64,000 bases of DNA from Halichondria panicea (taxonomy: Eukaryota > Porifera > Demospongiae > Suberitida > Halichondriidae): contig NC_087388.1 of NCBI RefSeq assembly GCF_963675165.1, positions 4,097,047 through 4,161,046 on the forward strand, in the 5' to 3' direction. Every line of letters starts with the position of its first letter. Position 1 is the stretch's first letter. Shown here piece by piece: positions 2,919-27,650 of this stretch. Both the position numbers and the translations under genes were made by a program. The notes beneath the pieces are model-generated. The model was not told the origin of the DNA, ran no database searches, and saw only the letters and a list, made by a program, of their open reading frames with translations.

Positions 2919-4479
2919 ATAATTAGAATGGAAATCCCGGGATTGACCTGTTCAAGGATGCTTGACTTTCGAGTGTGCCTAGACTCCGAAATGAAGCGCT
3001 TGCAGAGAGCTGGACTAGGGTCACAAAAGAAGGCTGAACCTCTAATACATACTCTGTGCAACTGCTGCTACTAGACTCTACAACGCTGGAGTGGACGAAC
3101 AAATGATAATGGATAATGGAAACAACTGGACACCGAAGCTTGGAAGGAGTTCGCAGCTACAAGAGAACTTCTGAGTGTCAAAAGAAGTCAGTTTCAGACA
3201 TCCTCAACGTAAAGCCAATTAACATACTGGCACACACTGATCACTCACAGATGGCAATGCAACAGTCTCGCAAACCAACTGCTGTCAATTTATGCCTCCA
3301 AACTTTAACTTTAGTGCCTGCAACGTTATACCATCAATCTCTCTATGCCTACATCCAACAACCAACGTATTAACAGCGACTGAACATTATAATTTTTTGT
3401 CATTACCAAAAACAGAACAGTTCCTTCTCATTGTTTTTTATAATACAATCTACAAAAAACATGTTTGAAAAACACAAAAATTAATAATGAATGGTTGTTG
3501 TGAACATGAAAATTACAGGTTTATATGAGAATTTACAGGTTAATATGGGAAATATAAACCCTGTACTGACCAATCAGATTGCTGGATTCTGGGCTACTAG
3601 TAACTAATGCTATTTACCTGCTCTTCTTCTCTTTTCTTTATCAACAATTAAGACAGTGATATAGAGCTCATTTCTGCTCATTCTATATAGTTGGCTACTC
3701 AGAGCTATTAAAAGCTAGTTAGGTGAGTCACATGACACTAGAAGTTCACTAGTACAGGAGGCAAGGCCTCCTCTGCCTTATTGCTAGTTACGCCTCTGGT
3801 CTCCTTTAATTAGTTGGGGGAGTCCTGTGCACCAATGCATGAGAATGCATTGGTTGGAGTAACACTTTTGTTCCACTGATTTGCAGCCCAATCAGATTGC
3901 TGCGTTCAAGTGGTAAATCTTATAGCTCAATTTAGCTGGCAAGGCAAGCTGGCTCATTGTAATGCAGCAACATGCAACTTCTGCCTGATATCTAGGCTAC
4001 TATAGAAAAGAAACATGATGAAGTTTGAACAACATTTCTAAGTCGTATAATTATATATAGGCTCTTTGTGTTTTGAGTATTGGTGTGCTACCAAAAATGT
4101 GGTATATATGAAACTTCTGGTTGTACCACTTCTTGTGCTAGATCTATAAAAAATGATATTTCTGCCTCTATACCTCTACTAGTCTACATCTTGTATTACC
4201 GGCTGAAATATCAAGAGCTCTTAAGTCTTCCTTGCATCCCAGAACAGCTATATATAATTATTAGCTATAGTCTAGCCAGCTAGACAACAGCATATAATTA
4301 TCGATTTCTTTATAATTATATACCCCAGCCTGAGCCATGTGATTGTCAGCCACAACAATAGTCAAAACTGCCTAAGTACTATATAGTGGAACAAAAACGT
4401 ACATCTAAGTACTGATACCCAACCATATACGCATTCGGACTCCACGCCCAACTAGATTTTTCCTTATCAATTTACAATT

Positions 4480-5666: not shown

Positions 5667-8600
5667 ATGGATTCAGTTGTGAGAGGAAATTTCAATTGTC
5701 AGCTACCCCAGCAAGATACAAATCTTGTCAGAATATTTCTGAGCTCTACATTTGGTGGTAAGCTGCATTCAGATTCTCAGCTATTAACTATACATTATAC
5801 ACCACAAGCAGCACTAGTTTGTATGTAGACATACAATTGTTCAATTATGAAAATAATAGTGATGATGGCAGAGTATGTATTTTCCACTGAATGAATGCAT
5901 GCCCGTCTAAAAGACTAAAGTAGTATAAATAAAGTTATATAGCTTCTGTATAAATGCAGTCCATGCAGTCTGAGTCAGTTTTTCCATTTTGCCGAAACTC
6001 GAATAAATATATAGAGTCTAGTACAATTATAGTATAAAGTGTATGGACGAAAGAAAAAAGTATTTGGCTGTGTGCTGCATGCCATGAAAGCAGGATCACA
6101 TCAAAACTATAGATCTATCATGGTAAAATACGATTATAATTATATAATTATATATAGCCATTATAATTATGTATAAGGGCTGATGTAATTATAACTCATT
6201 CAAAAAGTGATCAAATTGACCACCAGCTACAAAACACGATGATGTGCTAATGAGATCATAATTATAAGACATTATAGCAATCCTAAAGGTGAAAGATAAA
6301 CAGAAGCCTTTCAACACTATAGATGGGGAACTTTTTATACCAATATGATATCATTTTGTTAATGATTACACTGTCACATGCTGTACATGCATGTGTATCT
6401 GTTTCAGATTTCATTGAGGAACGCAACCGATTGGCTCGGGAAACATTTCCTTGCCTGCAGAAGTACTGCCAGAGCCTGGGTCTGGAGTTTCAGGTAGTGG
6501 ACATGAGGTGGGGGGTGAGGGATGAAAACATCTCCTACCATCAGACCAGTGACGTTTGTATCCAGGAGATACATAACTGCCAAAGACTCTCCATTGGTCC
6601 ATCCTTTGTGGTAAGCTTCATGTTGACGTCCTTACGAGTCCATGCATGCTTGATTATACCACACTTGAGTTTTTTTTTGTTTTAGAGCTTGATACTTACA
6701 ATAAAGTACGTTTTAGAACTCGATGCTTACAATCAAGTACGTTTTAGATGCTTACAATAAAGTACAACCATCATTCATGGCATACTTCAGTCCTATGTAT
6801 ATACTGCATGCGTGCGACTTGATGCAAGACAACATGCAAGTACATGCACATGTAATGTTATATATACACAGTGGCGTATCCAGCTATGTAGGAGCTCACT
6901 ATACGGCAGGGTGCTCCGTAAGCTTAAAATTGTAACTTACTGATTATCTGCATAGGAACTAGATCCATAAAATAATGGTGGGCAGCACTTAGATTGAAAG
7001 CTATAGATCTCTATAGGTACGTCTATAGTAATACCACACCTAAAGGTAAACATTATTCTGAGCCTATATTATTACAAGCAAGTCACACCTATTTCATAGT
7101 GGCACATATCTTATACACGTACCTTAATTAACTTGCACCTTAGAAAGCAACACCATCATGATGTACTATAATTATATAGGCCCTGATTGGAGATCGATAC
7201 GGGTATCGTCCATTCCCAGCAAAAATTCTACGCAAAGAGTTTGAGCTTTTTGTGAAACTGGGCTCGTCTGAAGACATTGATACGACTATCCTGTCAAAGT
7301 GGTACAAGGCCGACACAAACAGCCTTAACAAATCATACCAGCTTCTTCCGATTACCTTTCATTATCCCAACTACTCGTGTGAAGACAAGCTTTTAATGGC
7401 TTCTGACAGAGACCGCTGGTGGAAGACATTTCTTGAGCTCCAGAAAACATTTTGGGCTCTCGTAAAAGCCGCTGTTGCTCAGGGTCAAATGACTGCAGAG
7501 AGGGCCCACATTTACTTGCAGTCAGGTGAACATGCAATATTAATAGCTATTAGCCTTATGCAGTTTTAACAAGTGCATGAAGCCTCAAATTTGAGAATTC
7601 TCAGACTGTACCTACTAATGTTAAGCACTTTGTGATTAGTGTACTTTGGTCGCATGCTTCTTGTTTACACTGTTTGACAACTAAATGACTCAAATTAGTT
7701 CCTCCTTTTACAGTTACAGAGGATGAAATAAATCATGGAATCTTTAGAGCTGCTTCTCCTAATGCCAGCTGCCTGTGTTACACGAGAACATTATCCAACT
7801 TGGAAACAAAATTGACAGATCACCTTGCCAACAAATACATTGACATCTCTCCGAACACTGCTACTCCTTGTATTGATGGCGAAGCTCAGCGGCTACTACA
7901 CGACTTCAAGTTCCGTAAACTGCCAGCCACTCTTGGATCTGATAACATGCATTCGTACACTGTCCCTTGGATGCCTGGAGGCATTAATGAAGATGTCAAC
8001 GAGCACAAAAACTATGTAGATGAACTCTGCGATCAGATGCTACAAGATATCAAATCTCTCATTGATAAAGGACTTGTAGCAAGAGGAGAGTTGAAAAAAT
8101 CGGCTCTGTACACTGAAGTTCTACACCATGCTACTCTATGCCTTACCAAAGCCAAATCGTATTGTGACAGGGGAGATGATGTAATTCAGAAAATCAGACA
8201 CTTTGCTACCAGTACCAACAGTAAACCACTTATCGTGTACGGAAGATCAGGATCTGGGAAAACATCCGTCATTGCAAAGGTTGTGCATAGTTTGCGATTA
8301 TGGACGAATGGAACTGGTTTTGTGGTCATGCGATTTCTCGGCACCTCTCCACACAGCTCAACTATACGAGAGGTTTTGATTAGCATTTGCGAGCAGATTT
8401 GTGCTTTATACAGCATAACTCCTCCATTGTTTCAAAAAATGGACGCTATGGGTGTAACTCTGTACTTTCGAGACAAACTGATGAATACACTAGAAACTGT
8501 TGCACCTAAAACACTCTATCTTGTAATCGATTCTGTTGATCAGCTCTCTGCTAGTGATGGTGCTCACTCTATGAAGTGGCTTCCTTTAGCCACACCACCG

Positions 8601-11600
8601 AATGTTAAAATCATAGTCTCTATGCTCAGTGAAGGTTACAACTGCCTTGAAAATGTGCAATCCATGCTACCATTCTCCCCAACTAACTACATTGAGGTTG
8701 GTCCGATGACTATTGAAGCTGGCCTGCATATTATGAGCAAATGGCTCTCTGATGTTGGAAGAACAATCACCCAAGAACAGACATTTCTCATATCCACCGC
8801 TTTTCTCAACTGTCCACAACCACTATTTCTTAAATTACTGTTTGGTCGAGCACGTACATGGAAGTCCTACACAGACATAACGTCTATCAAATCGTTTCCG
8901 AAATCAACTCACGAAGCTCTCGACGATTGTTATGAACATCTTGAAGAATATTTTGGCAAAGTGCTGGTTGAGAAAGCTTTAGGTTACTTGACAGCATCAA
9001 GAGAAGGCATTACAGAGTCTGAGCTTGAGCATGTCCTATCTCTGGATAACGAAGTGTTAAACGATGTGTATCAGTATTGGGACCCGCCCACAAAAGGAGT
9101 AGTTCGAATTCCATCACTGCTGTGGAAGAGAATACATCACTTCATTTCGGACTACATTGTGGAACAGTTATCTGGAGGTGCAACAGTTATGGTTTGGTAT
9201 CATCGGCAGTTTATTGAGAGTGCAATGGCTCGATACGTGAATGAGAAAACGAACGTTTCTCTACACTGCACACTAACAGAATTGTTTGATGGCTCCTTCG
9301 CTAAAAGCAGCCGGAGTGTCAGGCTAACTCATCGAGACCTTGAGTTGGTCGATGCTGACAGACAAGTACCATTGCAACCACTAGCCTTTCCAGGAGGTGC
9401 TTACAATTTCAGAAAACTGAATGAGTTGCCTTATCACCTTCTTCACTCGAAACAGCTCAACAAGCTCAAAGCCACTGTTCTGTGTAATTTTGAATGGATG
9501 CACACACAGCTCAAAGCTTCCGGTTACACAAAGCTCATGCGTGACTACATTGCAACACAGCAAGTGCACAAACACGAGCAAGATGTATTGACTGTTGGTG
9601 AGACTCTCTCACTGTCCCACAGTTCCCTGCAAATTAACCCTGACATGCTCGCTGGCCAATTGTTAGGTCGAATGCTGAGAATTTCATCCACATCACCCAC
9701 TCTAGGCATATTAATAGACAATGCCAAACGTTGGATCAGCAAGTATGAAAAATGTATTTTCGAGCCTCTCAACAACTGCTTAATTAGCCCTGGAGGCGAA
9801 CTCAAAGCTACCATTTCTAGCCACCCTCAGGTTGTTTTGGGAATCAAAAAATCACTTTTTTCTCCCATTGTTGTGTCTCATTCCAAAACAGAGGACGGAA
9901 GCATTTTACAAGTATGGAGTATTGAATCCCTCGAATGTATTGAGAACATTTGTACATTAAGAATGCCTGGTAAAGAAATGCCTACGGGAAGCAACTTTGT
10001 AATTGCTGGTGACTTTGTAGCAGCAATCAGTACGAACTCATACACACTTTGGAATATGAATACAGGAGTTATGCGGGATCATTTTGAAACAGAATCCGAT
10101 GGAAAATTGACCTCTGTTGTTGCAACTCAAGATGGACAGCAAATACTTATTGGAACCTCTAATGGGCATGCTATCTTTAAAACAACATCAATACCGACAA
10201 GTGGCACTACTATCAAAGCAGAAGACTCGATACTTTCAATGGACTTGACACCAGATGATCGTACTACGGTTACACTGCTGGCAAATAATAAGTTTGCTTT
10301 GATTGACATCAACTCTAGGCAGATTGTTAAAGTGTTAAACGTTGATAGTGACTTTCACTCATCATCAAGCACAGTCAAACACATAGCCAAAAGCAGAGCC
10401 GGCAGTTTTTTTTTTATAATTGGTGCAGAAAGTGGCTCAGTTTTTTTTGTGGATCTGAAAACTTTCAACTCTGTTAAAATCGCTGCACATGGCAAAGCTG
10501 TAAAATGTGTCACACACGTGTCCGAGTTGAATGTAGTCATCACTGGATCACTTGATAGCCTTTTAAACGTATGGGATCTTAGTTCTTTTACTCTGTTGAG
10601 AGTCCTGAAAGGGCATGTAGATGGCATTTGGTGTGTAGATTCATTACCTAGCATGTCCCTTGTCGTGTCCGGCTCGAAAGACGACTATTTAAAGGTTTGG
10701 GACGTTGAAAGTGGGAAGTGTCTTCACACACTAGAAGGTCATTCCTCCTGGATCTCATCAGTGTGTGCCGTATCTTCAGATGTCATTGCTTCTGGCTCAA
10801 ATGACAAAAACCTCAAGATTTGGAAGCTGGGATCGGGTTCAAGCACATTTGATTCATCCACTCGGCATCTTGCTCAGCCAGAGTGTGTTGGACTGAATGG
10901 CCTGAAAATAGCTGCATCTGGTGGACCTGATGCACTGAAGCTCTGGGATCCACAGAACGGCGAATGCTGTATGTCAATAGAATCCCCAACCTCATGTCTA
11001 CTCTTCACTAACGATGGTGCTTTGCTAGTATCAGGTTCTAAGAAAGGAGAGATTGAAGTCCGTGATTGCAGTTCCAATTTTTCATTGCTGCATTCAGCTC
11101 ATAAGCACACAGACAAAGTGACCAAAATACTGGAACTATCAAACAATCGACTAATTTCAGCTTCACTCGATTCATCATTCATAGTATGGACGAAAAAACT
11201 TCAAAGTGAAACTGTTCTTCAGGGTCATTCTAGTGGTGTGACCTGCATTGCTATTGCAAATTTTCAAAGCATTCTTGCCAGCGGTTCTTCTGACTGCTTT
11301 ATTTGCTTGTGGGATTCTCAAAAACTTGAACTTGTGTGCACTCTAAAAGGCCATTCAAAAACTGTAAACTGTATTGTGTTCAATCACAATGATACGAAAA
11401 TTGTTACCGGAAGTGACGACCGAACAGCTCGAGTTTGGAATATCTCTGATTTTACTTGCACCAGTAGTATTAATTTTTCAGACAGTATTAAAACTATTGC
11501 TTTCATAAGTGAAGACATTTTCCTAGCTGGAGTTCATTGCAGTCGGAAACAGTTGAAATCTTGGAGCGCTAATACTGGAGGATTTGTGTGTGAATTTAAT

Positions 11601-11840
11601 GGTCACACGCATGCTGTAATGTGTATGTTGATCATAGATTCTGATCATGTAGTGACCGGATCTCGAGATGGAACTATCAAGCTGTGGTGTTCTGATAACG
11701 GCTCGTTACTAGCCAGCTATGATCTTCAATCTCAAGTGAAGCATATTGCTGTTGTCAAGTCAACTACTAAGCATTTCATTCTAGCTGCTACCACAAAGAC
11801 TGGCCCAATAGCATTCTTAAAACTGATGTGTATTTTCTAA
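5667..11840 (+). CDS. NACHT and WD40-repeat protein, NWD1/NWD2-like
   Basis: Exact four-exon model: 5667-5757, 6408-6610, 7180-7525, 7714-11840; 4767 nt, 1588 aa. Residues about 20-115 form the N-terminal module found in NWD1, TEP1 and NPHP3 relatives (DUF4062-like): VRIFLSSTFGDFIEERNRL, then FQVVDMRWGVRDE and IGDRYGYRPFP. The NACHT ATPase follows, with Walker A GRSGSGKTS at 390-398 and a Walker B-like VIDSVDQL near 486. The C-terminal half, from about residue 920, has some 12 recognisable WD40 units, for example LLNVWDLSSF and TIKLWCSDNG. Family members are STAND ATPases: WD40 propellers act as a sensor and nucleotide exchange drives oligomerisation. Ligand and output are unknown here. Almost everything from the NACHT onward is one 4.1-kb exon. 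Two in-frame acceptors, 6 nt apart, precede the last exon. The gene runs convergently towards the SecA-like gene. Confidence 0.9.
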
Positions 11841-13565: not shown

Positions 13566-16500
13566 TTACTGTAAATTACCAGAAGGTGGACGTGTATGTC
13601 GTCCAAATCTGGTGTAGGGTAGGTGTAGCCTCGGAGGTACAATTCTTTTCACATTTCTTTGAGTCTGTGGCGTGCATTGAAGCTGAGCAGGTTGTTTAGG
13701 AAATTGTCCTAACCTTATGTCTTCATTCATTCCATCCTTTCCTAGAAGTTTTCTTTCTCCATCTTGTACTTTTCTGTATTCCGTGTACGATGTAATACGA
13801 TGAATACCCACATCTTGCCGATTAAATAAACGCAATCTTTCTTTATTAGTTTCAGCATTGCTATCAAAAACCTTACAGTTGTTATTCTTTTTCAAAAACG
13901 TACTCATTTTTTTAATGTGTTCCTGTGCATCATCCACCTCTACTGATCCACATCTGAATTCAGCATCTTGCTTTCCCTTCACTAAGCCTTTTTCTTGTCT
14001 TTGTTTCAACTCATATGGAGGGCTAGATACAGCAGTATTCCCATGGATGTACTTTCGATCCACTAGATTGGCCGCTTTGACCCCTGCATTCACACCAGCA
14101 TTTGCAGATGCATGAAATGTATAGATAGAGTCTGGACACTTAGGTGGTGGTACCATTCGTTCAATTTCAGTTTCCATCTTGTGTTGCTTATGTTCTCTGT
14201 TGAGTGTTTTTTCTCCCCTATAATCTTCGGAATGTTTCAGTAACAATATATCATGTGGACTTGTTTTGGTACTTCTGGAATTTGAAGGATCTCGACCTCC
14301 TTGCTGTACAACACCTTGAACAGCAAGATTGCCAGGATTTTGATGGCCCTGATGAGGCACTGCCTGTTGGCCATTTCCATTGCTGCCAATAGAACCATGT
14401 GCTGGTTGAGCTGGGATTTGCATCGTAAGAGTTTGGTGGTTTGATGGATCACAAATGCTTTCTTTAAACTCATCTCTCCGCTTTTGATGGGCTTTAAGTT
14501 TTTCATCAGCTTCTGTAGAATGAGGCTGTTGTTGAGAAGGTGTAGCTTGCTTGATCATATCTTCATGATCTGCTACTGTTGATTGCTTTGTACGTTTATT
14601 TTTTTGACTTAGATCTTTCACAACTTCAGATGGAGACTTAGTGAATGTACTTTTTACGCATTTTGTGATAGCCTTCTTTGAAGCCTTTGCTACTTGTTTG
14701 ACACCTTTTCTGACAATATTGTCGACGCCTTTTTTCAGTGTAGATTGCAGCTTCATTCTTATTGGATCCATGTAGGCTCGTTCAATATCAGCTAACTCCC
14801 GAGAAACTAGACTCTCATTAGCAAGGCCAATCTCTAATTCTACTACTGTTACATGTACAGTAACAGCATCCATGTTTCCACTGAGAGGACACATAGATTC
14901 CAGATTATCTTGCAATACAGCATGCCCATTCTTTTTATTGCCAGAGTGTTTATTAGAATTCTGCTTTCCACGACCGGAGTGTTTGGTTGTATCTTGGGTT
15001 TCTTCCAATACTTCAACCACAGCTGACACTAGGTGATACACTTTCACTGCTTTCTTTACAGCCGAGTGAATTGTTTCTGCTATTTTAACAGCTTTTGCAG
15101 CATTTCCTGCTATTTTGGCCAAATTTGAGTTAGATCTGCTCAAGTTATCAGCAAGTGTATCAAAGCTGTTACTCAAGCAAGTGCTTATTTCAGAAACAAT
15201 TCGATCAACGTGATCTGGCAGTAGTTTGAGTATAGCATTTTCTAAACGCATCCGAATATCTTGACACTTGGCATGGAAAGCATCATCAGAATCGGCTTGT
15301 TCATACAATCTCGTTAAAAGCTTGAGTAATTCATCTCTCAACTTTGAAAAGATGTTATTTTGTATAAATTCCACAACACCGTCAACTATTTGCTGTTGTA
15401 CTTTAGCCAAAACTACGTCTGAAATTATTCCTGTCACAGCTTTCATAGCAAACTGGCCGGCAGCTTTAGCCATGACTTTACCAAACGCTCCCAGTGTAGA
15501 AGGGGAGCCAAGTTTAGCAGCTGTACTACCACCAGATGCCACAATGCCAATGCCAACAGTTGCTATAGAGATGGCAATGCTAATAGCTTTCTGTATTGCC
15601 CAGTCTTTCCAACTAAATGTCCCAGTTAGTCCAGCAATAGTAGCGTATACCATGTCATTGATTCCTTCGGCAATCAGTGCAGCTCCTATTTGAGCACCTG
15701 CTCCGGCTGTTATTACCATTAGAGCTGCCCCACCAATGACCTGAGCCAGACCAATCAAAGCACATGCAAAGGCATTCCAATCCCAGCACCATCTTTTTTT
15801 AACTTCTTGTTTCACAGTTAAAAAGTAATCTATACGCCATGCAATAAAAAACTCTAGTGCTTGAGGAATTTCATCAGGGCGAGGGTCAAGTTCACTGAAC
15901 TCAACAAAACCGACTTTCATGTCTCGTTCAAATTTACAAACTTCACCTTGTAAGCCTTGAAGGACGTTTAAGATGAAACTAGTCTGTTCTTCAGTGTACC
16001 CATTACCTATCGCTTCCTCTGTCAGTGACCTCAATTCATCATCACGGATGTTGTATTTATTTCTAACAGCAAGTTGGCCAGACTTTAAGATTCCATATTC
16101 CTGAAGAAACACATGAATTTTCTTTGCTTCCAGTGATTTCTTTCCATAAGGTAGCATGTGTTCGTAGAGATAACGACTTTCATTCTCACAGCAGTGCTTT
16201 AACACTTCTGCCAAGAATGCACGTAACTTGAGGTGACCACCATCCCTGGAGATCTCAATATCTTTGTAGACACCAATTTCTAGAGTAAGTATACACTCGC
16301 AAGCTGTTTCAATGAGTAAACCTCTCCTAGTCTCAACAACAAGGCAGTTATCCCTCAAGTGTGAAATTAGATTTACATATTCTTGTTTCTGAAGGATTGG
16401 ATCATGAGATGGTAGTACGATTTGACAATCAGTTTCCTGAGATTTGAACTGATTTACAAACTTTGTCCAGTTCTCTATTTGCTCATCACTAGTCAGTTTT

Positions 16501-19500
16501 GTTTGCACTTGTTTAACTTCGATAACTACGACCTCTTCGGTCTGCCCCATTAGTGGACTGAGAACGCTCCAAAGATCTTCACTGCTGAAAACAAACTTTG
16601 AGATATCACTTTCGCTGATACTGGTACTTGTGGGGACAAGACTCATTAAATGGTCTGCAATGTGAGGATCAAGCTTTTTGTAGAGAAGATGCTTCAGCTT
16701 ATCCACTTTTTTCCAGCACTTTCTTACTTTATGGTGGTGTATAATTCTGTGAGCAACCAACTTGTGATAGATTTCCTCTGACTGTTTTTTAGTTAATTTC
16801 TCATTAGTTAAAGTAGATTTTTCAGCAAATGAGCACTCATCAACAGTACTTCCCAACAATGTCTTGATGATGTTTAAGTGTAACCCAATAACTTTGATCT
16901 TTTCTTCTGTCTGCTGTAAATAATGGTTCTCTTTGCAATCAACATACTGGCTTACGTCAATGAGATCAGAAAGCAAGCGACTAATTTCTCCATTAGACAT
17001 CCAACTTCTACGCAACTCGTTCAGATGAATCTCTGCAGTTTTCAGAAAGTGGCAGACTCTCTTTTTATTTTTAACTGTTGCTTCAGGGTTAAGTTTAATG
17101 AAGCAATAGCAAGCTGCCATTGCAGGAAATCCTGTTTTATCACCTCTATATATTGCTCTATCAAAACAAGTTTGAGCAGCATAGTAGATTTTCTTTATTA
17201 AATCATCATTCACCTTTTCAATTTCTTTGAGAAAAGCTTGGCCAAGTTGAATGTAGTCTTCTGGTATCTTGAAAAATGGTGAGTCATAAGCTATTGAAAC
17301 AACTGATAGCTCTTCAAGAGGAAACTCTTTGTTAAAGAGATCTTGAACTTGCTGTCTTTTGTCTTGACTGTTTGCTGCCTGTATTTGTGTGCGCATTGAG
17401 TCTAACCAATAAGCCCAGCGATCAGTCATGATTGCAATACAAGCTCTTTTGCAGTCTTGGAGGTTCATGATCGCAATATCAAACAATTTAGTACTGCTAG
17501 CATTTAGAGCTGAAGCAAATGCTATTTTGTATTCCTGGAATAGTAAGTACATATTTTCTTCGAGATCAAGTTTAGGTAATCCCTCAATTAACAGTAAACC
17601 AAGTCGGTCAGTCTCTGCTTGGTCTCTTTTGATCTTCTCCATTTCTACTATTACTTCAGTTGCAGTTTCAAGAGAGCCAAAAGTTTCAATTTCATCTTGA
17701 TACTCTCTGTAATCAATTGGAACAACTAAACAGCCACTTCCAGCTTGTCCGGCACGAGCAGCTCTCCCAAATGCTTGCTCTTCTATTCTTGTATTCTCGG
17801 GCAGGAAACTTAGTATCACATGCAAACCTTTAGGAACTTGTTCTTCTTTGATAATGATGTCTGTTCCACGTCCTCCCTTATTAGTGGCCAATACAACTTG
17901 TCCAGGTTGAGCACCACTTTGTTTAAATCTGTTTTCAACATCATCGCCATCGCGGGCATAATCAATGATATGCTCTTCAGTAACTACAGCATGAGTTAGT
18001 AGGTAGTTTTTCAACAGCTGTAGCTGACGAATGTTCTCACAAATGACCAATATAGGTTGGCTTGCAGTCTTAGAAGATATCTCGGTTTGTATTTGTTTAA
18101 ACCACTCTTCCTCATTTGAGGCACAATGAGACTTGACTTGTGAGTATCTTTTGACTCGGTTAGTTGGAAGCTCCACTGTTCTGATTGTGTAAACTGTTTC
18201 GAGCAGCCTACGTGATGAAACAGAACCAAGGGTGCCGGTCAGGCCATAGAGTTGCTCATTGTATTTTTTGAAGAACCTCTTGTTTGATATGAAAACAGCT
18301 TTTAGACTCTCAGTTGAAAGAGGAAGCCGATACTTGAGTTCAAGAAACTGTGACAAACCGTTACTCCATTTCATATTGTACTGTTCAGTGCCAGTTTGTT
18401 TATCGATGGGGAAAATATGCCTATCAGCAGATTGTTCATCATTTTTATGATCGAGGATAAACTGATCATCTGCATCCATAAACCGGGCTTGGTATGCACT
18501 TCGAACCCAGGCTTTTATCTTGTGCCGACAGAATCCTTCTAAATACTCGGGGACAGAGATTGTTTCGTTCTCAATCAAAGCAATTAAATGATCTGCTAGC
18601 TCGTTCAAGATTGTTTCAAAGGAAGTATCTCTGTCCTCACTTTGTGGGTTAAGGTTTAGAACAGAACACCATATTGTTACAAAGAGAGATTCTAAGTGTT
18701 TCAAAGCCGGACTCTCGTGAGACAGATACAGCATGTGCCGACCTTTATCAAGGAACATGCTATCAACTTCATCTACGAGCAGACAATTTCTTTCGGAATT
18801 AGAATAGCGAGCACTGAAGTTTGTGTCACCTGGATTGTTTTCTTCAATTAGAACATCCCTTTGGAATGAACCAACCTCACCATACACTATGTGTGAATTG
18901 TAAGCCTGTTGATTGGTGTCATCATCCTCTCCACAGTTAACAGCTGCCATAAGTCCAAGAATATCAAAGAATTTCTCGCACTTTTCTCTTCCATCTTTAG
19001 CCAGATCTCTATTGCTCGACACAACATCGACCTTACAACCAAGCAGAGCTTTAGCAGCTGCAAGCATTCCAACAATCAGCGTCTTCCCTTCCCCTGTCTT
19101 AACCTGTTGAAGGAGGCCTTTGTTGCTTGTTTGCAAAAAAAGCAAAAGAGACACAATTTGTGTGTTGTAGGGTACTTGTATTGAAGTTGTCGATGTAGCT
19201 AACATCCAAGCTAGTACTATGTGTACAACAAACTGCACGCGGTGTTTCTTAAGCCATTCATCTTTCTCATCAACAGAAACACATTTCTGAAGAGTTTCAA
19301 AAAACCTTCTCAGTTGTTGCTTACTAGGCAAGGGTTGCTTAGAACAATGTTCAATACGGTCAATGATTTCCATTGCTTCTCCTTTGAATTGCTCTAGTTC
19401 ACGAGGGCTGATGGCAAAATTCCCAATTTTCATTTGATACTCAATGAGGTCGATTATCTCACTAACTCCTTGTGGCTTCCTACTTTGCTTGTTACTTTCT

Positions 19501-22500
19501 ATTTCCCTCAGTGCAGGTAACCAATCAAGATAGTCACGATCTACAATGATAGAGCTAATATCCTGCAGAGTAACTCTCTTGTAATACAGATCTTCAAATA
19601 GAGTCATCAGAAACCCGTTATCTTTAGCACCACTGCTGATATACTTGCTTCTCATAGTGTACAGGAGAGACATAAATTCTAAGTGAGGGATGCCAGCTTC
19701 AAGCCGAACCCGATTCATCAAGTACATTGTTCTCTGTTTTACAGCTTTTGTGATGTCAGCCCAGTGATCAAGATATTGCTTGAAATGTATCACCGCTAGC
19801 TCTTTCTCCCAAAGTGGCATTGAAGTATTACATAACGAAGTGGAGACTTCAGGACACACTTCAACAAAAGGTAGCCATTCTATAATAGTGATAAGCTGAG
19901 CAAGGGTAAGTATGCCAACTGTCGAGTTTGGATCAGCTTTATGATACTGATCATTCGTGAAAACATTGTACAGAATTTGCAAAAGCTTGGTATCGATACC
20001 CATCAACCTATCATGAAGGTGAATGGAGTTAGTTTTAAAATGATCAGTGCAGACTCGTACAAAGTTGAATGCAAGCAAGTTTGAGAGCCATTGGCCACTG
20101 GGAACTTGCCGTAGAATAGAAACTACTGGCAATAGATCTGGAGTGACTTTAATAACTTGGATGATGGTAAGCAAGTTTGATAGTAGATCAGTACAATCAT
20201 TTTGAGTAAACAATGGCAAATGTTCCAGAAGCTCAGCTTGTAACGATTTTGTGAGCATATTCCCTATTAAAAGCAAATCATGGATGTTATCCCAGGCACA
20301 TTGTTGGAACGCTGTTTCTGATTTGCTTGTTACCCATAATGAAAGTGTATGCATGACTAACTCTTTCCTTGAGTCGTGATTGAAGATTTTATCAGAAAGA
20401 ATTACGTGAAAAAATTCCATCATTTTGTATAATCTTTCATTAGTCCATAAAAGTAATATCGTTGAGACGTGGGAGTAAAACTCCGAAGAATACAGCGTAT
20501 TCTCAAGACATAATTCGTTTGAAAGACTGCAATTGACGACACATTCAATTTTAAGAAATTTTTCATGTAGATCTTCTATTGAACGAATCATGCTCATTAG
20601 TGTATAAAGATTTTGTTCATCATCCATCTTTTTAATGACTTCTAGGAACACATTGATCCTGTGGTACTTATTAAATTTGGGGATTCTACTTAACAATTGT
20701 TCTATTTCAGAGCTAAGTGGTTTGTTTAAATTTGGACTTTTCTCGATAATAATCCTTAATCCTTCGGATATATTGCTATACATTTGAAACTGAGAGTGAG
20801 CACTCTCAAACGTTAAGTAAGCGTTAACATTTTCAGACTCACGAAGGTATGCAAATGCTGAACAAAGGCACTTTGCAGTGTAAACTGAGAAATTATCCGC
20901 CTTCAAAACATTCTCCCAAAGTTGCAAATAAGTGTCATCTATGTTCACATGACCCTTGTGTTTCCTCTTTCTATCCTCAATCAGCAGAAACTGTAAGTAA
21001 AATTCCATTCCCAACAAATGGACATCTTCAACAACTATGCTTTCACAGGCTGGCGACAAAATCTCCTCTAATAGTTGTTTCATCATCTGAAAACATTGCA
21101 GGTCACAAGGAAGTGAGTTAATACACTCTTTAACAAACTGTCGACGAATCAATCTCACTAGCTTTGGTACATCTTTGTCATAAAGGACAGTGGGAGAATC
21201 TTGTATGGCAGCTTTGAGTGCTGTGTTAAGCAGAGAAGTTGGTAATGATGCTTGATATAGCTGATCATACTTATTCAGTAGGTTAGAAACCAATAGAAGA
21301 TTTTTAATAGGATTCTCGTTTGTATTGGTTACCAGTGGTAGCGAGTAGGTAAACTCAGTATCCACTATAGATTCACATTTTTCAATATTGTACACAATAG
21401 CTGGCTTTGAGGGGTGCTTGATAACGCAAGCAGCAACAGAAGATTGTATCATTGAGATATCATCTTCAGTAAGTTCAAGAATTTGAAGTGTTTTCACTAT
21501 TTCTAGAGCCTTGTCCCTGCATAAACATTGTATTATAATGACTTTGTCCTTTAAGTGTTCATCTTTGACATCTTCTGTATCAATCTGTTCACACAAGCAT
21601 GTTCGTAAATCGATACATTCAATGTATACATTCGCATTATGCTCATCTACGAGAACTTGGCCACAAAAGTCAACTTTAAAGTGGGTGCAAAACTCGTTCT
21701 CATATCCTAGTCTTCCAAGAAGACAAGCAGCTTCTTCTTGGCTCAAAATTATTTGGTCTTTTTCTTTCTCAAGTAATTCTTTCATATTCATTCGGAGAGC
21801 ATCTAAAATGATGTCACCAGACACCTCTCTGTATACTAAGGAATGTGGCTTATTGTCTGACAATGTACACGACCCCCACTGACCACCATCTGGGTAGAGG
21901 ACTAGCGTGTGGCAATCGATATTATCCTCCTCATTAGGTTCCTGTGTTTGGAAAACAACCTTGTGTTGTGGTGGGAGTCTCTCGAGTACAACATGAACTT
22001 TTCGTTCTGTTTGAATGCTTAGGTCAGGATAGATCCAATGCACTAACGTGTTAAGGCAAGAAGATGAATCGAATTGATTACTAAGGGACAACTTACAAAA
22101 TAGGAATTGTTTGCACTTCTCTTCTTTTCCCTCTGCATTGTACAATGAAGAAAAATCTTCAATACTCGTTGCAGCACAAACCATCTCTTTGATGTCTAGC
22201 AGCTTTTGCATTAGTTGTAACAGTGAAACACCTTGCTTGAGCGTAGAGGACAACTGTGCCAATACTTTACAGGTAGCAGTTGCTCTAGTTCTTTTGTCGG
22301 AGATAAATTGTAACTGCTTTTGAATATGCAGCTCCCAGTGTTTTAAAAGAGGTGATGGCTGTGAGAGGGGGTAGCGACCTAGTACTCTGAATAGTTTACT
22401 GAAGCAGTCTGCTCTTTCACGAACAGAATCATTTGTGTTAGCACTCGTCTCTTTTATCAAATACTCCACATCTAATACAGACATCGAAACATCCTGCTGT

Positions 22501-25500
22501 AAGAGTGACTGATTACACGATTCCATTTCACCAGCACATGTTTGTTCAATAATTGTAATACTTTGGAGAATCTGCAGGAAACTCTCAACAGTTGAGTGCA
22601 AGAGGTTTGTCTCTGAAGTTTTAACAATACGACATGCAATTTTTAGCAGAGCTGTTATGTTTAAGCCATCTTCATTTAGTCGCTGAATAAAGTCATTAAT
22701 ATTGGTATCGGCTTCAAAGGAGTGGAAATAGCGTTGTAGAGCATTAAACAACCAAGACAAAAGATTGAGAATTTCATCTGGAAACTTTGCTACAATCATT
22801 TTTGAGCGGGCACACACAGACATTGCTGCTGTCAGTGTAAGGGCACTAGGAAATGCCTGAAATGCTGCATAAAGATCCACAAACTTAACACGAGATACTG
22901 AATTCTGAGACTGCAAATCAGGCACTTGTATGCCAGTGATGCTCTGGAAATATTGAGCTAGATCTACAAAAAATGTGTCAATTACACTATAAACTGGAAA
23001 AGGGTTAGTTTTTAATTTAACCAAAAAGTCAGTGAAGGCCTTTTGATTGTCACGACAGTTGATTTTTGGCAACAGGTGGATATTTTCTATCAAAGATTGA
23101 CTTGCTGTCACACAAGGTATCTCCTCAGAACCCTCTCTAATTTGTTTATTATCACAAAGTATTCGAAGTATGCCACAAACTTGATGATAGAATGCCCTCA
23201 GCCCATCCACTACCGTTTCTGAGCTAAGGTACTCAATGTAGCTATCATGTGATTCGGTGAAGTAGTTTTGATGACATACACGAATGCTTGACAACAATGT
23301 AAAGAAATTCTCAGAGGATGGGACCTTGTTGAAAAGATTGATGGCTCGTTTCAGCTTCAATGATGTTCCATTGCAGAATGACCTTGTGCTAATCCAAGAA
23401 GTGTCCAACGGTAAAATTAAAAGTTGTTCGCTAAGTAAGACTTTTTGGATAGTGCTAAGTTTGTCACAAGATGTAGCTGTGATAACATCGTCAACACATT
23501 GAGCATAGAGCTTTTGAACATACTGAAATTGTTGAGTTTGATAATACTTTCCACCAATCATCAAATACGTTTTTCTGATTGCAATTAACAGTCTCAGTTT
23601 CCAAATACAGCATAGTTGTTCTTTGCAGCATGGAACAGCCTTAGGTCCATAGTTGGTTCGTATCCAAGTCGCCATTTGAGAGTAGAGCATATTATCACGT
23701 GGAATTGCTTGAATTTGATTGTCTTCAATCTCAATATCGTTCAATATGGCCAGCAGTGACTGATCATGGATCGATCTCCCTGAGTAAGAGCCAACATGGT
23801 AATACTGGTATCGGTCACTACCTTGTTTGAGAATACGAAAGTAATCAGTAGCTTTGTGTGTTCTCATCAAGCTGGGGGGTCCATTTGAAATGAATATTTC
23901 TCCTTCGGAAATGTTCAACATCATCTGATTCACAATAGTGTCACTACTATCGTCAGATAAAAATAATTCCACTGTGAGGCGGCTTAAATACTTTCCTGCA
24001 CAGGTTTTTAGTGAAGACAGATCAAGGATCACTTTTGAGCTGTCACCATTTGTTCCAAGATAACCCAACGTTTTATGATGGCTTTTTTCCTCTATGTCTT
24101 GCATTAGTTGAGCTCGTTCTCGTCGCATTTCTGTTGTAGTTTGCTGTTGCATACTCCTCTGTAGAGATGCAGATTGACTGTGAATGCGAGTGATCCAAGC
24201 TTCACTGTTATTTCTTATCATCTCACTGTGTTTTAAGACAGTAAAATTTCCTTTCAAAACCTCTCCTATTTTCTGTGCGAATGCACTCAAGAAACTGGCA
24301 TGAGATTTAGCATTCCAATGTTGCAGAGATTGTTGACACTGTTCCTGCATAGAATGGAAGCAAGCACACTTATCAATCGCTTTGTTTTCATTAGCTACAG
24401 CGTGGTTCACTTTAACTTGAGCATTTTTCCCCTTTATATTCCTTCCTCTCAAAAAACTAGTAAAATCAGGGTGACTTCCGGTCTTCATTTGATATGGTAG
24501 TGACTTTCCTCTACACTCGTACCATTTTCCAGACCCATGATTCCTCGGAATAGAATTGTGTCTCAATTTCCCCTCGACTGTTTTTTTCTTCCTGTAATCC
24601 CTTCGAAAGAGAAAAGTCCCAAATGTACGGATGCAATTTGGGTGTTTTGCATACGCCCCATAGTCTTTACCATGTCTTGTGTGCCTTCCTCCCCTGCCAG
24701 ATAGGCCTGGATTGCCTAGTATTCCATCTTCGATTTTCTTTTGAGTTGCTCTGCAGTTTTGATCGTTTTCAAGATCAATTAATTGAATTTTACCGCTGAT
24801 TCCTGATTTTCCAGCAGCTCCACCCATTCCAGCATCACCCCCTTGGCCTCCGTTTTTACCAAACGTTCCATAGCTAATAATGACACTATGTTTCCAACTA
24901 GTTTTAAATTCTTTGGCCTCCCCATCACGTCCTTTATAGCAGGGCGACCAACCAGCTCCGCCTTTGCCTCCATTTTGACCATTTTCCCCTCGACTTCCAT
25001 TGGCGGAAAGAACCCAATTAGATGGGCATAGGCTGCCACTGACCAACAAGGTGTGACCACCAGGGTTTCCATAGCGACCGTTATCCCCATCCGAGCCCGG
25101 TTTTCCTTGCTGACTGTGCTCGTTACCAGCCTCCCCAGAAAACGCAGTGCCTGGGCGATCATTTTCTGATATAGGTAGTCCATCAGTGTTAATACTGATT
25201 GTAGGTTTGTTAGTGCAGACAGTTTTAGGTGAAATGCAAGCAAAACTAATTCCTGGAAGTGTTATGTTCGTATCAGCATACACTACTGAGTCAGCAAAAA
25301 ATCTGAGATGGTCTCCTGGTTTTAGCCTCATTGGGTACTTTTCTAGCCATTCTTTAAGGGATGCATCTGCTCCTACAAAAGTTCCAGCCACAAACTTCAC
25401 ATTGAAGATTCGATAGTCATCCTTATGCTCATAAGAAATAGTGTAGCGTTGTAGCATGGGCGACAGCAGTGCACTTAAATGGCTTAGATACTCCTGCAAG

Positions 25501-27650
25501 TATGAATAGTGATTCTTGTTTGAGTTTAGGTACTCTTCCACCTGTTTTCTGGAGTCTAGTGAGATCAATTGCTTATTAATGAATGACAATATTCTTGTGT
25601 ATAATGAAATCTGTGATTGGTAAAGCTGATGTTTCTCAGGTGTGTATTCACTGGACTCTTTGTTACATTTTTCGTATTGTTTGTTGAGATTTTGTATCTG
25701 TTTGAGAAAATCATTAATTTCTTGCTGCTGGTTTTCTTCTGGTGGCTTTTGAAGGAAGCTATATGAAGTTGTCGCTTGGTGTACATCTGTTTCGATTTGC
25801 TCCAACACTTCCATCACTCTGACACGAGAATCAATGAGATACAAGCAAAATGCTGTTACGCAATCAATGACCACCCTGTGAAAATCATCGGTATCAAATA
25901 TATCCTTCTTCTCCTTGAATAATTCTGAGAAAGATCTAAGGAATTGACTGACAAGTTCTTTTGGACAAGATTCAAAGTGTGCCGAGAAAAAATCTAGAAA
26001 CTTTTGCACAACGGAACATTTTCCAATACTTTCGAAGTCATGCAACAAAATAATCTGGCTAGTATTGTCACCATCTTTGCTTTCAATACTGTCATCAGAT
26101 TGATTCGGATTGCCAAAAAGCTGATTCTCTGACAAATGCCCATATCTACATTCTAAGAGATGATGAAATAGATCACGGAATTTTAGGAGTGGACCATCTA
26201 CTGCAATCCCTTTGTCCAAGTTAAACAAATCAATATCCTCACCAAAATGTTCAAAAATCAAATAATCAGATCTCGAAAAGTGAAATTGATCGTTATAGCA
26301 AGTACTAGGTACCAAAGCAGCCACCTGCTTTGGAGGGAGCTGAGCTTTTGCCTTATTCTCAGCCAAGCACTCTTCTAGGAGGGATACCTATAATATCATA
26401 GCATGTAATAATTATTGATGATGAATTTACAACTTGAAATAGTAACACAGACCACAAAATGTTTAGGGGAAAAACTAAAAAGCATGGAGTGGGGGAGAAA
26501 AACATTATATCCATCCGCGTATTTAATCTCGAATTAATCTCGATCCTTTACTGCAAATTTTCTAGCATTTAATATAGCACGCATGCATAGTACACACATT
26601 TGTAAGCTATTACAGGCAGTTTTTGCAAAGGATAATAATTGCAATGCTATAACCATGGAATTTAACTGTTCTACTGTCTCTATTATTCCCTACTTCATTT
26701 ATTTCATTTCCCTGCCATTCTACTTCCTTTTAACAAAAAATGATCAGGTATACCGTGATATCAACGATGACAACATTTTCTGAGATCAAAATGAACTTAT
26801 GACATACAGAATCGTCCAAGTCAACAATGGGTATGAATGTACTTGTTTAACGGAGCGTATTACTAGCCATAGGTCCGTGGAATCAATCGTCTACTACCAA
26901 CGTTACATTTCCTTATTTGTAGTGCTGTGTATATAAGCTGATAACACGTTTGATCTAATTTCATTAAGCAGTACAACAAATAAAATTATCAGTATCCAGC
27001 AGTTTGACATGTATATTGCATGCAGGACGATATTAATTCCGCGTAGTAATCCACATCCTCTCATTTGCTCTTGGTTTAACTATAGTGTATCGTATAGCGA
27101 ATATATTTCGAGGGTATAAACTTTCGTGTTGCATGTATATACCGCGAAAATTTTTAGTTATATCCTAGAATATTAATATCGCACACATGCATGCGCAAAA
27201 CACTGTAGTCCACGAAAATTAAATCCACTACACCAATCCTACAGAGTACTATATATAGAGTAAATCATTAAGCTTCTAAGGCATCAAAATCGTCAGCTAC
27301 AAGGGCATATAATTCATGAATAAAACAAGATTGATTCTAACTAACGTCCGAAACACCAACAGGTGGCTATGAGACGGGACTACTAACCAGCAAAAAATGG
27401 ATGGGCCAAGTTGATCACTAATTCCGTAGGAACTGTGATTACTAGAAAAGAGCTGCCAAATAGTTCGATTTTTGGGAGAGCGTAATCTATCTCGGATTGG
27501 CCTAGAGAAACACCAACGAGTGCATGTGGAAACAATCAAGCGGGAGAGAGCCGTACATCAATCCGTCACGTCACTCACAGGCCAATTTAACAATGGAAAT
27601 GATTTATTAACGAGTGTTGCAAGCTGCGCTGTGCTAATACCTCTCGCCAT
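13566..27650 (-). CDS. Giant SecA-core ATPase protein, 4297 aa
   Basis: Exon 1 is 27579-27650 (ATG, 72 nt, donor GTGAGT). Exon 2 is 13566-26387 (acceptor ATTATAG), 12.8 kb and open throughout. The join is phase 0 and gives 4297 aa. Residues about 440-600 are glycine-rich and collagen-like (GSDGDNGRYGNPGG, GGKGGAG). Residues about 2400-2910 match both nucleotide-binding halves of bacterial or plastid SecA: Walker A KTGEGKT (G at 2456), Walker B DEVD at 2563-2566, the LTGTLG motif, ATNKGGRGTDI near 2855-2865 and FGRAARAGQAGSG near 2895. In SecA these drive ATP-dependent protein translocation. About 3555-3690 is strongly hydrophobic and Ala/Gly-rich, with possible membrane segments. The final 500 residues are polar and Lys/Gln-rich. 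Most of the N-terminal 2400 residues match nothing I recognise. There is no evident signal peptide. Exon 1 is the least certain part. Function is unknown. Confidence 0.85.
26388..27578 (-). other. Single intron of the SecA-like gene
   Basis: Inferred from donor GTGAGT at 27578 and acceptor ATTATAG ending at 26388; both sides are phase 0. The long frame continues upstream of 26366 without any ATG until it meets this acceptor, so a 5' exon is required. The intron is AT-rich. Near 27090-27130 it contains ATATTTCGAGGGTATAAAC, also found at the end of the element at 35266-35476. Confidence 0.6.

Follow-up and report, generated by a model that had tools for sequence, protein, structure and literature searches.

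A SecA-type motor within a giant protein of the sponge Halichondria panicea and its relatives in animals and bacteria

SecA is the textbook protein-export motor of bacteria and plastids and, to our knowledge, is not expected in animals. What, then, might a SecA-type ATPase do inside a giant protein encoded by a sponge? The gene that raises this question is read from the minus strand of a 64,000-nt stretch of Halichondria panicea DNA (assembly GCF_963675165.1, contig NC_087388.1, positions 4,097,047-4,161,046 of the forward strand), hereafter the window. An earlier sequence-only reading had described its product as a 4297-residue animal protein with a SecA-type ATPase core and largely unrecognised flanks. 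The core is borne out by SecA_DEAD, P-loop_SecA, PDB and profile–profile matches. We hold with moderate confidence that the window gene is functional, that it is an animal representative of giant SecA-motor proteins common to animals and bacteria, and that it encodes a membrane-linked protein-handling machine.

The motor, its gene and its genome

The window protein matched the Pfam SecA_DEAD profile with 103.7 bits (E 1.5e-29), well above the curated cut-off of 24.6, and P-loop_SecA with 33.5 bits (E 4.2e-8; cut-off 27). All 24 PDB sequences retrieved at E<=0.01 were SecA. In a profile comparison with canonical SecA (probability 100, E 1.6e-59, 25% identity), residues 2374-2886 aligned with residues 62-592 of the Escherichia coli protein; residue positions follow the 4266-codon frame described below, and all features of the gene lie on the minus strand. 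The motor core, which comprises both nucleotide-binding folds (residues 2381-2900; window 17667-19226), makes up about an eighth of the protein, as had been estimated. Its five catalytic motifs are intact and in the claimed order: Walker A, KTGEGKT (residue 2423; 19080-19100), Walker B, DEVDSM (residue 2532; 18756-18773), LTGTLG (residue 2709; 18225-18242), ATNKGGRGTD (residue 2827; 17859-17888) and GRAARAG, with the arginines of the helicase C-terminal fold (residue 2867; 17748-17768).

This is an animal gene and not part of a symbiont contig. The contig measures 6.76 Mb in a genome of 131 Mb and 39 contigs, in which the Wnt family, specific to animals, gave ten matches, with none in 14 control genomes. 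The motor gene does not stand alone: it is one of seven SecA_DEAD loci in its own genome and belongs to a large animal and bacterial family that includes vertebrates. Three loci are of a long type (the window copy, C12b and C12a), all within ~115 kb of one contig, and four are of a short type (C2, with 2458 codons, C16, with 2365 codons, C1 and C7), whose motor is ~34% identical to that of the window protein. C12b (4082798-4095664; 4288 codons) shares 77.7% identity with the window copy. C12a is split over two overlapping frames, and C1 and C7 are each split over several. All five motor motifs were found in each of the six complete cores of this genome.

The main exon of the window gene (13566-26387) consists of a frame that is open throughout its 4266 codons (13566-26366) and of seven further codons leading to the splice acceptor. 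By direct reading, the 4297 residues proposed earlier correspond to 24 + 7 + 4266, with an extra exon of 24 codons (27650-27579) that begins with an ATG and ends at a GTGAGT donor; its acceptor would lie just before 26387. C12b lends support on the acceptor side, since an AG stands at the corresponding position there and a similar peptide comes after it; an 'FLExC'-like peptide also occurs near the frame start in four of the ten frames printed from other matches (P0010, P0012, P0014 and P0019). The exon 1 peptide had no convincing match near the paralogues, and this exon (27579-27650) is thus an unproven candidate. Of the proposed length, the long open frame stands and the first 24 codons are in doubt.

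Selection on the motor, which the intact motifs had led the earlier reading to expect, is purifying. Between the window copy and C12b, the ratio of nonsynonymous to synonymous substitution rates (dN/dS) was 0.148 (0.08-0.24) in the motor, 0.45 in the hairpin domain described below and 0.385 over the whole. The motor likewise had a low synonymous rate (0.134; 0.294 for the whole), which makes gene conversion between the two copies possible in this part. For C16 and C2, the overall dN/dS was 0.302; the motor gave 0.195, the hairpin 0.20 and an OTU-like domain 0.103 (0.04-0.19). Judged by the selection acting on it, the window gene is functional.

Relatives in animals and bacteria

A search with the window motor retrieved 346 proteins (among those of 2,350-7,470 residues) and a search with a short-type motor retrieved 1176; the 120 listed from each are considered here. 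Long-type relatives among the matches listed came from rotifers (Rotaria, Adineta and Brachionus), Mytilus, the brittle star Amphiura, many insects and Artemia, and they included Wolbachia proteins of ~3,900 residues. The short-type matches listed came from the hemichordate Ptychodera, the ostracod Darwinula, ray-finned fishes, the coelacanth and amphibians such as Xenopus, and many of these proteins are encoded on contigs that measure tens or even hundreds of megabases; no amniote was found among these 120 of 1176.

A scan of prokaryotes, with one genome per species, detected 147 relatives. Among the best 80, 46 (L036-L080 and L103) had frames 966-5255 residues long, many of which were truncated at contig ends; the other relatives mostly measured 570-1062. 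The large frames were found in Rickettsiales, Legionellales, Parachlamydiales, Amoebophilaceae and others, and many bacterial members come from intracellular groups. Groups without known intracellular life were also represented, namely Elusimicrobia, a Ruminococcaceae bin, and Cytophagales and Flavobacteriaceae bins. Outside the usual endosymbiont groups, the SecA frames of L069 and L103 (Elusimicrobia) reach 4433 and 5255 codons and that of L074 (Ruminococcaceae bin) 2981. The best match of the scan by E-value was L036, a 7.4-kb contig labelled Gammaproteobacteria that aligned with query residues 2481-3915 and shared 39% identity in its best segment; it may represent either a copy from a symbiont or an animal contig that was misbinned. 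Relatives were also present on three viral contigs. Eighteen matches in phage records were set aside, all being below 60% identity and named or placed like ordinary bacterial secA. PADLOC gave no match.

Motif conservation was counted in the complete cores of the family (295 of 332). Walker A is kept in 114/114 long, 99/99 short and 42/43 bacterial or viral cores, and the least kept motif is the LTGT-type pattern (106/114, 37/99 and 29/43, respectively).

Trees were built from hand-picked rows (100, 100 and 68), after the removal of 14 partial cores and then of near-copies; the 68-row tree was fully bootstrapped, and one 100-row tree, in which the partial core P0155 stayed, was computed more quickly. 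The comparison with bacterial SecA suggested in the earlier reading placed the animal motors among large bacterial proteins and apart from canonical SecA. In the 68-row tree, all large proteins, the window protein with them, separate from canonical SecA (100/100), the short type forms one clade (100/100), and the long type forms another together with the bacterial rows L037, L038 and L039 (100/99). A single origin of both animal types was not resolved in this tree; they were joined at 97 in the quicker 100-row tree. In two trees, the Wolbachia proteins fall inside the arthropod branch, beside Artemia, a moth and a bee. The simplest history that we infer, the direction of its first step included, would begin with an ancient exchange between early animals and intracellular bacteria, after which genes would have passed both ways again. 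One animal-labelled protein of Darwinula stevensoni (P0223) falls among Rickettsiales proteins in the quicker 100-row tree and may be symbiont DNA in the assembly.

Domains around the motor

The flanks had been regarded as unrecognised apart from a glycine-rich segment and a hydrophobic C-terminal region. Both of these parts are real, and the flanks do have features: when 12 full-length long-type proteins were aligned, invariant residues lay in the glycine-rich domain, the motor, a post-motor segment and a hairpin. The glycine-rich domain (residues 372-568; 24663-25253) tends to have glycine at every third residue, with 42 glycines and 26 glycine pairs at that spacing, where shuffled sequences gave 8.6 (none of 2000 as high); its single match in the PDB had an E-value of 0.28. 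The post-motor segment (residues 2905-3185; 16812-17654) contains WAYWLD and then a stretch that is TPR-like in relatives. WAYWLD was compared by eye with the 'LWKEHLAAMD' helix of the SecA finger, a likeness dropped at an hhalign probability of 0.1. The hydrophobic region (residues 3531-3615) consists of two stretches, 3531-3566 and 3590-3615, within a hairpin domain with a TFSWKDW signature (residues 3500-3665; 15372-15869). The polar C-terminal tail (residues 3810-4266; 13569-14939) evolves fast and has no OTU-like motif.

Profiles of the hairpin and glycine-rich domains were built from the 12-row alignment, window protein included, and those 12 rows are also among the ones counted. The hairpin profile matched 117/121 long-type rows, 114/120 listed short-type matches, 26/46 large bacterial frames and 2/3 frames from viral contigs, and none of 35 ordinary-sized SecA proteins. 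The glycine-rich profile matched 103/121 long-type rows and nothing in the other sets (0/120, 0/46, 0/3 and 0/35, respectively). A protein search with the hairpin gave 18 matches (1644 candidates scored, of similar length only), every one with a SecA domain. Across 20 diverse sequences, the only invariant hairpin residues are one glycine and one lysine. A single short-type hairpin resembled the head of alpha-pore-forming toxins in the PDB (VCA0883, E 0.012; NheA, 0.014; MakA, 1.6; three of seven rows). This likeness was gone with a profile of 20 hairpins (0/10 rows) and with the hairpin of the window protein (0/3 rows), and no pore is claimed.

Beyond the hairpin, many relatives carry 'GHYDV...' followed, after ~18 residues, by 'SNCLF.A.A'. 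The strict form of this OTU-like pattern was detected in 32 of the 120 listed short-type matches. A looser form occurred in 35 of them, in 15/121 long-type rows (at least one probably spurious) and in 2/46 bacterial frames; its single occurrence among the closest relatives of the window protein probably falls in the motor. A profile of 11 OTU-like regions retrieved four PDB matches up to E 10, namely OTU1 (0.0022), two viral entries that we take to be OTU domains (0.036 and 0.44) and wMelOTU (0.8). Pfam OTU (PF02338) matched 3/11 pieces (best 3.1e-5) and 1/12 full proteins (0.026), and the C16 piece alone retrieved no OTU from the PDB (five rows) or Pfam. The domain looks circularly permuted, because its His half precedes its Cys half, the reverse of the usual order. 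A second indication of permutation is one weak two-part match, to 6dx3.

Other outer domains occur in single relatives: ILEI, an Ulp1-type peptidase, UCH, ankyrin, SH3, OCRE and a GDSL lipase. The short-type relative P0155 has an N-terminal apolipoprotein L domain (residues 60-222, E 8.1e-17). The ankyrin, Ulp1-type, UCH and apolipoprotein L domains belong to types linked with conflict or ubiquitin, and a motor that stays constant while its ends vary is typical of conflict proteins. In the amphibian proteins P0229 and P0242, SecA and reverse-transcriptase domains stand in one predicted protein, and these are perhaps gene models fused with retroelements.

The window motor shares both nucleotide-binding folds and all catalytic motifs with canonical SecA and SecA2. 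It differs from them in lacking a detectable scaffold, wing and finger, in lying within 4,300 residues and in being coupled to hairpin and glycine-rich domains; it is a known motor in an unusual machine. Five papers bear on this comparison (PMC5062602, PMC9203015, PMC3482391, PMC4452313 and PMC8195603). According to them, SecA domains in phage WO and invertebrates had already been noted: SecA is given among the phage WO domains closer to invertebrates than to bacteria and is grouped under secretion (PMC5062602), and a 'eukaryotic-like secA' is placed in the phage WO eukaryotic association module (PMC9203015). The Wolbachia protein P0076 and its kin share the motor, the glycine-rich and hairpin domains and a tree branch with the window protein, and they are probably the secA genes meant there; they differ in being bacterial copies nested in the arthropod part of the tree. 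SecA-like domains have been described in Amoebophilus effectors (PMC3482391). Amoebophilaceae frames that have both motor and hairpin lie close to the animal proteins in the tree, but the glycine-rich domain was found in none of the 46 large bacterial frames. The secondary SecA_DEAD proteins of Planctomycetes (PMC4452313) likewise have a SecA motor without the full wing-scaffold part, but they measure ~640-700 residues in the frames fetched, form a separate branch and have no hairpin domain. SecA-like ATPases have also been described beside glycosyltransferase toxins (PMC8195603). In a study of prokaryotic genes in the sponge Amphimedon (PMC4784904), a term search showed that the word SecA is absent from the main text. 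No description of an animal SecA family was found in searches of an open-access library that lacks most subscription papers, and the broad family seems undescribed as such in animals.

Possible function and competing explanations

In the mechanism that we propose, the motor would hydrolyse ATP and pull or unfold polypeptides, the hairpin would attach the protein to a membrane or insert it there, and the glycine-rich and repeat-like parts would position partners. Relatives with an OTU-like domain may in addition remove ubiquitin from the protein being handled. The likeliest role would be a cytosolic one, exerted on intracellular microbes, their vacuoles or their effectors; alternatively, the family might control symbionts. 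The window copy, being without the OTU-like part, may have changed its role or may cooperate with the short-type proteins of this genome. The machine would probably serve in host–microbe conflict. A bolder proposal, which we put forward tentatively and regard as rather doubtful in its full extent, is that two ancient animal subfamilies, spread from the lineage of the window as far as fishes and amphibians, form a SecA-powered, membrane-engaging machine, in many cases with a permuted deubiquitinase, directed against intracellular bacteria, and that their genes moved repeatedly between hosts and endosymbionts.

Several observations weigh against the mechanism that we propose. Beyond residue 592 of E. 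coli SecA, profile alignment gave no significant match to the scaffold, wing or two-helix finger, so that the movement of polypeptides is suggested by analogy only. Neither the window protein nor its closest relatives showed an OTU Cys/His motif in a motif scan. The hairpin had no convincing match among characterised families in the PDB, and weak, scattered matches in Pfam. Between the window copy and C12b, dN/dS reached 0.49 in the glycine-rich domain and 0.66 (0.49-0.85) in the tail, which indicates weak constraint, and three of the seven loci of the genome (C12a, C1 and C7) are broken into several frames. The anti-microbe role is argued from relatives and domain company only. The translocation, remodelling or defence machine of the sequence-only reading is still the leading kind of explanation, and it is not established, as the substrate-handling second half of SecA was not detected in the window protein by profile alignment.

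One alternative is that the SecA folds act as an ATP-dependent switch, like the nucleotide-binding part of an immune sensor, and undergo a change of shape that moves no polypeptide. Of SecA, nothing but the two motor folds is recognisable, a central ATPase with variable ends recalls such sensors, and a NACHT/AAA-WD40 frame adjoins the SecA gene. However, every SecA catalytic motif is kept in the six complete cores of the genome, those of the second fold included, which a mere switch would not need, and we consider this explanation unlikely, though worth serious attention.

The gene might also be a relic or selfish passenger from a symbiont, retained by duplication without a function in the host. 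Such an origin would suit the gene clusters and broken copies, as well as the Wolbachia copies inside the arthropod branch, from which it follows that gene transfers occur. The low dN/dS in both types argues against it, as do the well-supported clades that each type forms across animal phyla and a window copy open over 4266 codons; we judge it improbable.

That the protein is a true Sec-type exporter, acting together with a membrane channel (for instance in an organelle), seems very improbable, even if the motor is nearer to SecA than to other helicases. The NCBIfam cut-offs for SecA and SecA2 lie far above the window protein (162.9 bits at best, against 862), as do those of the other seven NCBIfam SecA models listed. 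Besides the undetected scaffold, wing and finger, the preprotein cross-linking domain (PF01043) gave no match at E<=1 in the window protein, and its matches in relatives are weak (7/11 and 8/12, one relative being common to both sets). The context of the motor is also ten times the usual size. Still slimmer is the chance of a superfamily 2 RNA or DNA helicase that merely resembles SecA, since the generic DEAD profile, although it matches (E 2.9e-7), is much weaker than SecA_DEAD, and the PDB matches are SecA throughout. Contamination by a symbiont genome, which the bacterial identity of the nearest non-animal relatives might suggest, has a negligible chance given the megabase-sized contig in a genome with Wnt matches, neighbours of kinase, tyrosine phosphatase, Kelch and FERM families, and three loci in 115 kb of one contig.

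If the family is, as we favour, a membrane-linked protein-handling machine, an uncharacterised ATP-driven protein machine is present in the genomes of tractable species, fishes and amphibians included, where it is annotated, for example, as 'uncharacterized protein' or 'Protein translocase subunit SecA'. The common branch with large proteins of intracellular bacteria makes both host–symbiont gene exchange and function directly testable.

As to the surroundings of the gene, 106 of the 144 other open frames in the window were scanned, and they matched the kinase, tyrosine phosphatase, Kelch, zinc-finger and other families (one frame each) and FERM (two frames). Exon-like frames of kinase, tyrosine phosphatase, Kelch, FERM, zinc-finger and SERF-like families are located at 1-7.8 kb and 26.5-64 kb of the window. 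The gene adjoining the SecA gene (7800-11840, plus strand) is a single frame of 1346 codons; it encodes an AAA/NACHT-like P-loop, with a weak match to orc1/cdc6, and WD40 repeats after it. Cathepsin-type matches in the genome numbered 77, and the five best, translated in a search for silicatein as a demosponge marker, all had the catalytic Cys. Elsewhere in the genome, cathepsin-type protease genes are clustered at C8:493345-533232 and C6:4947247-4950915.

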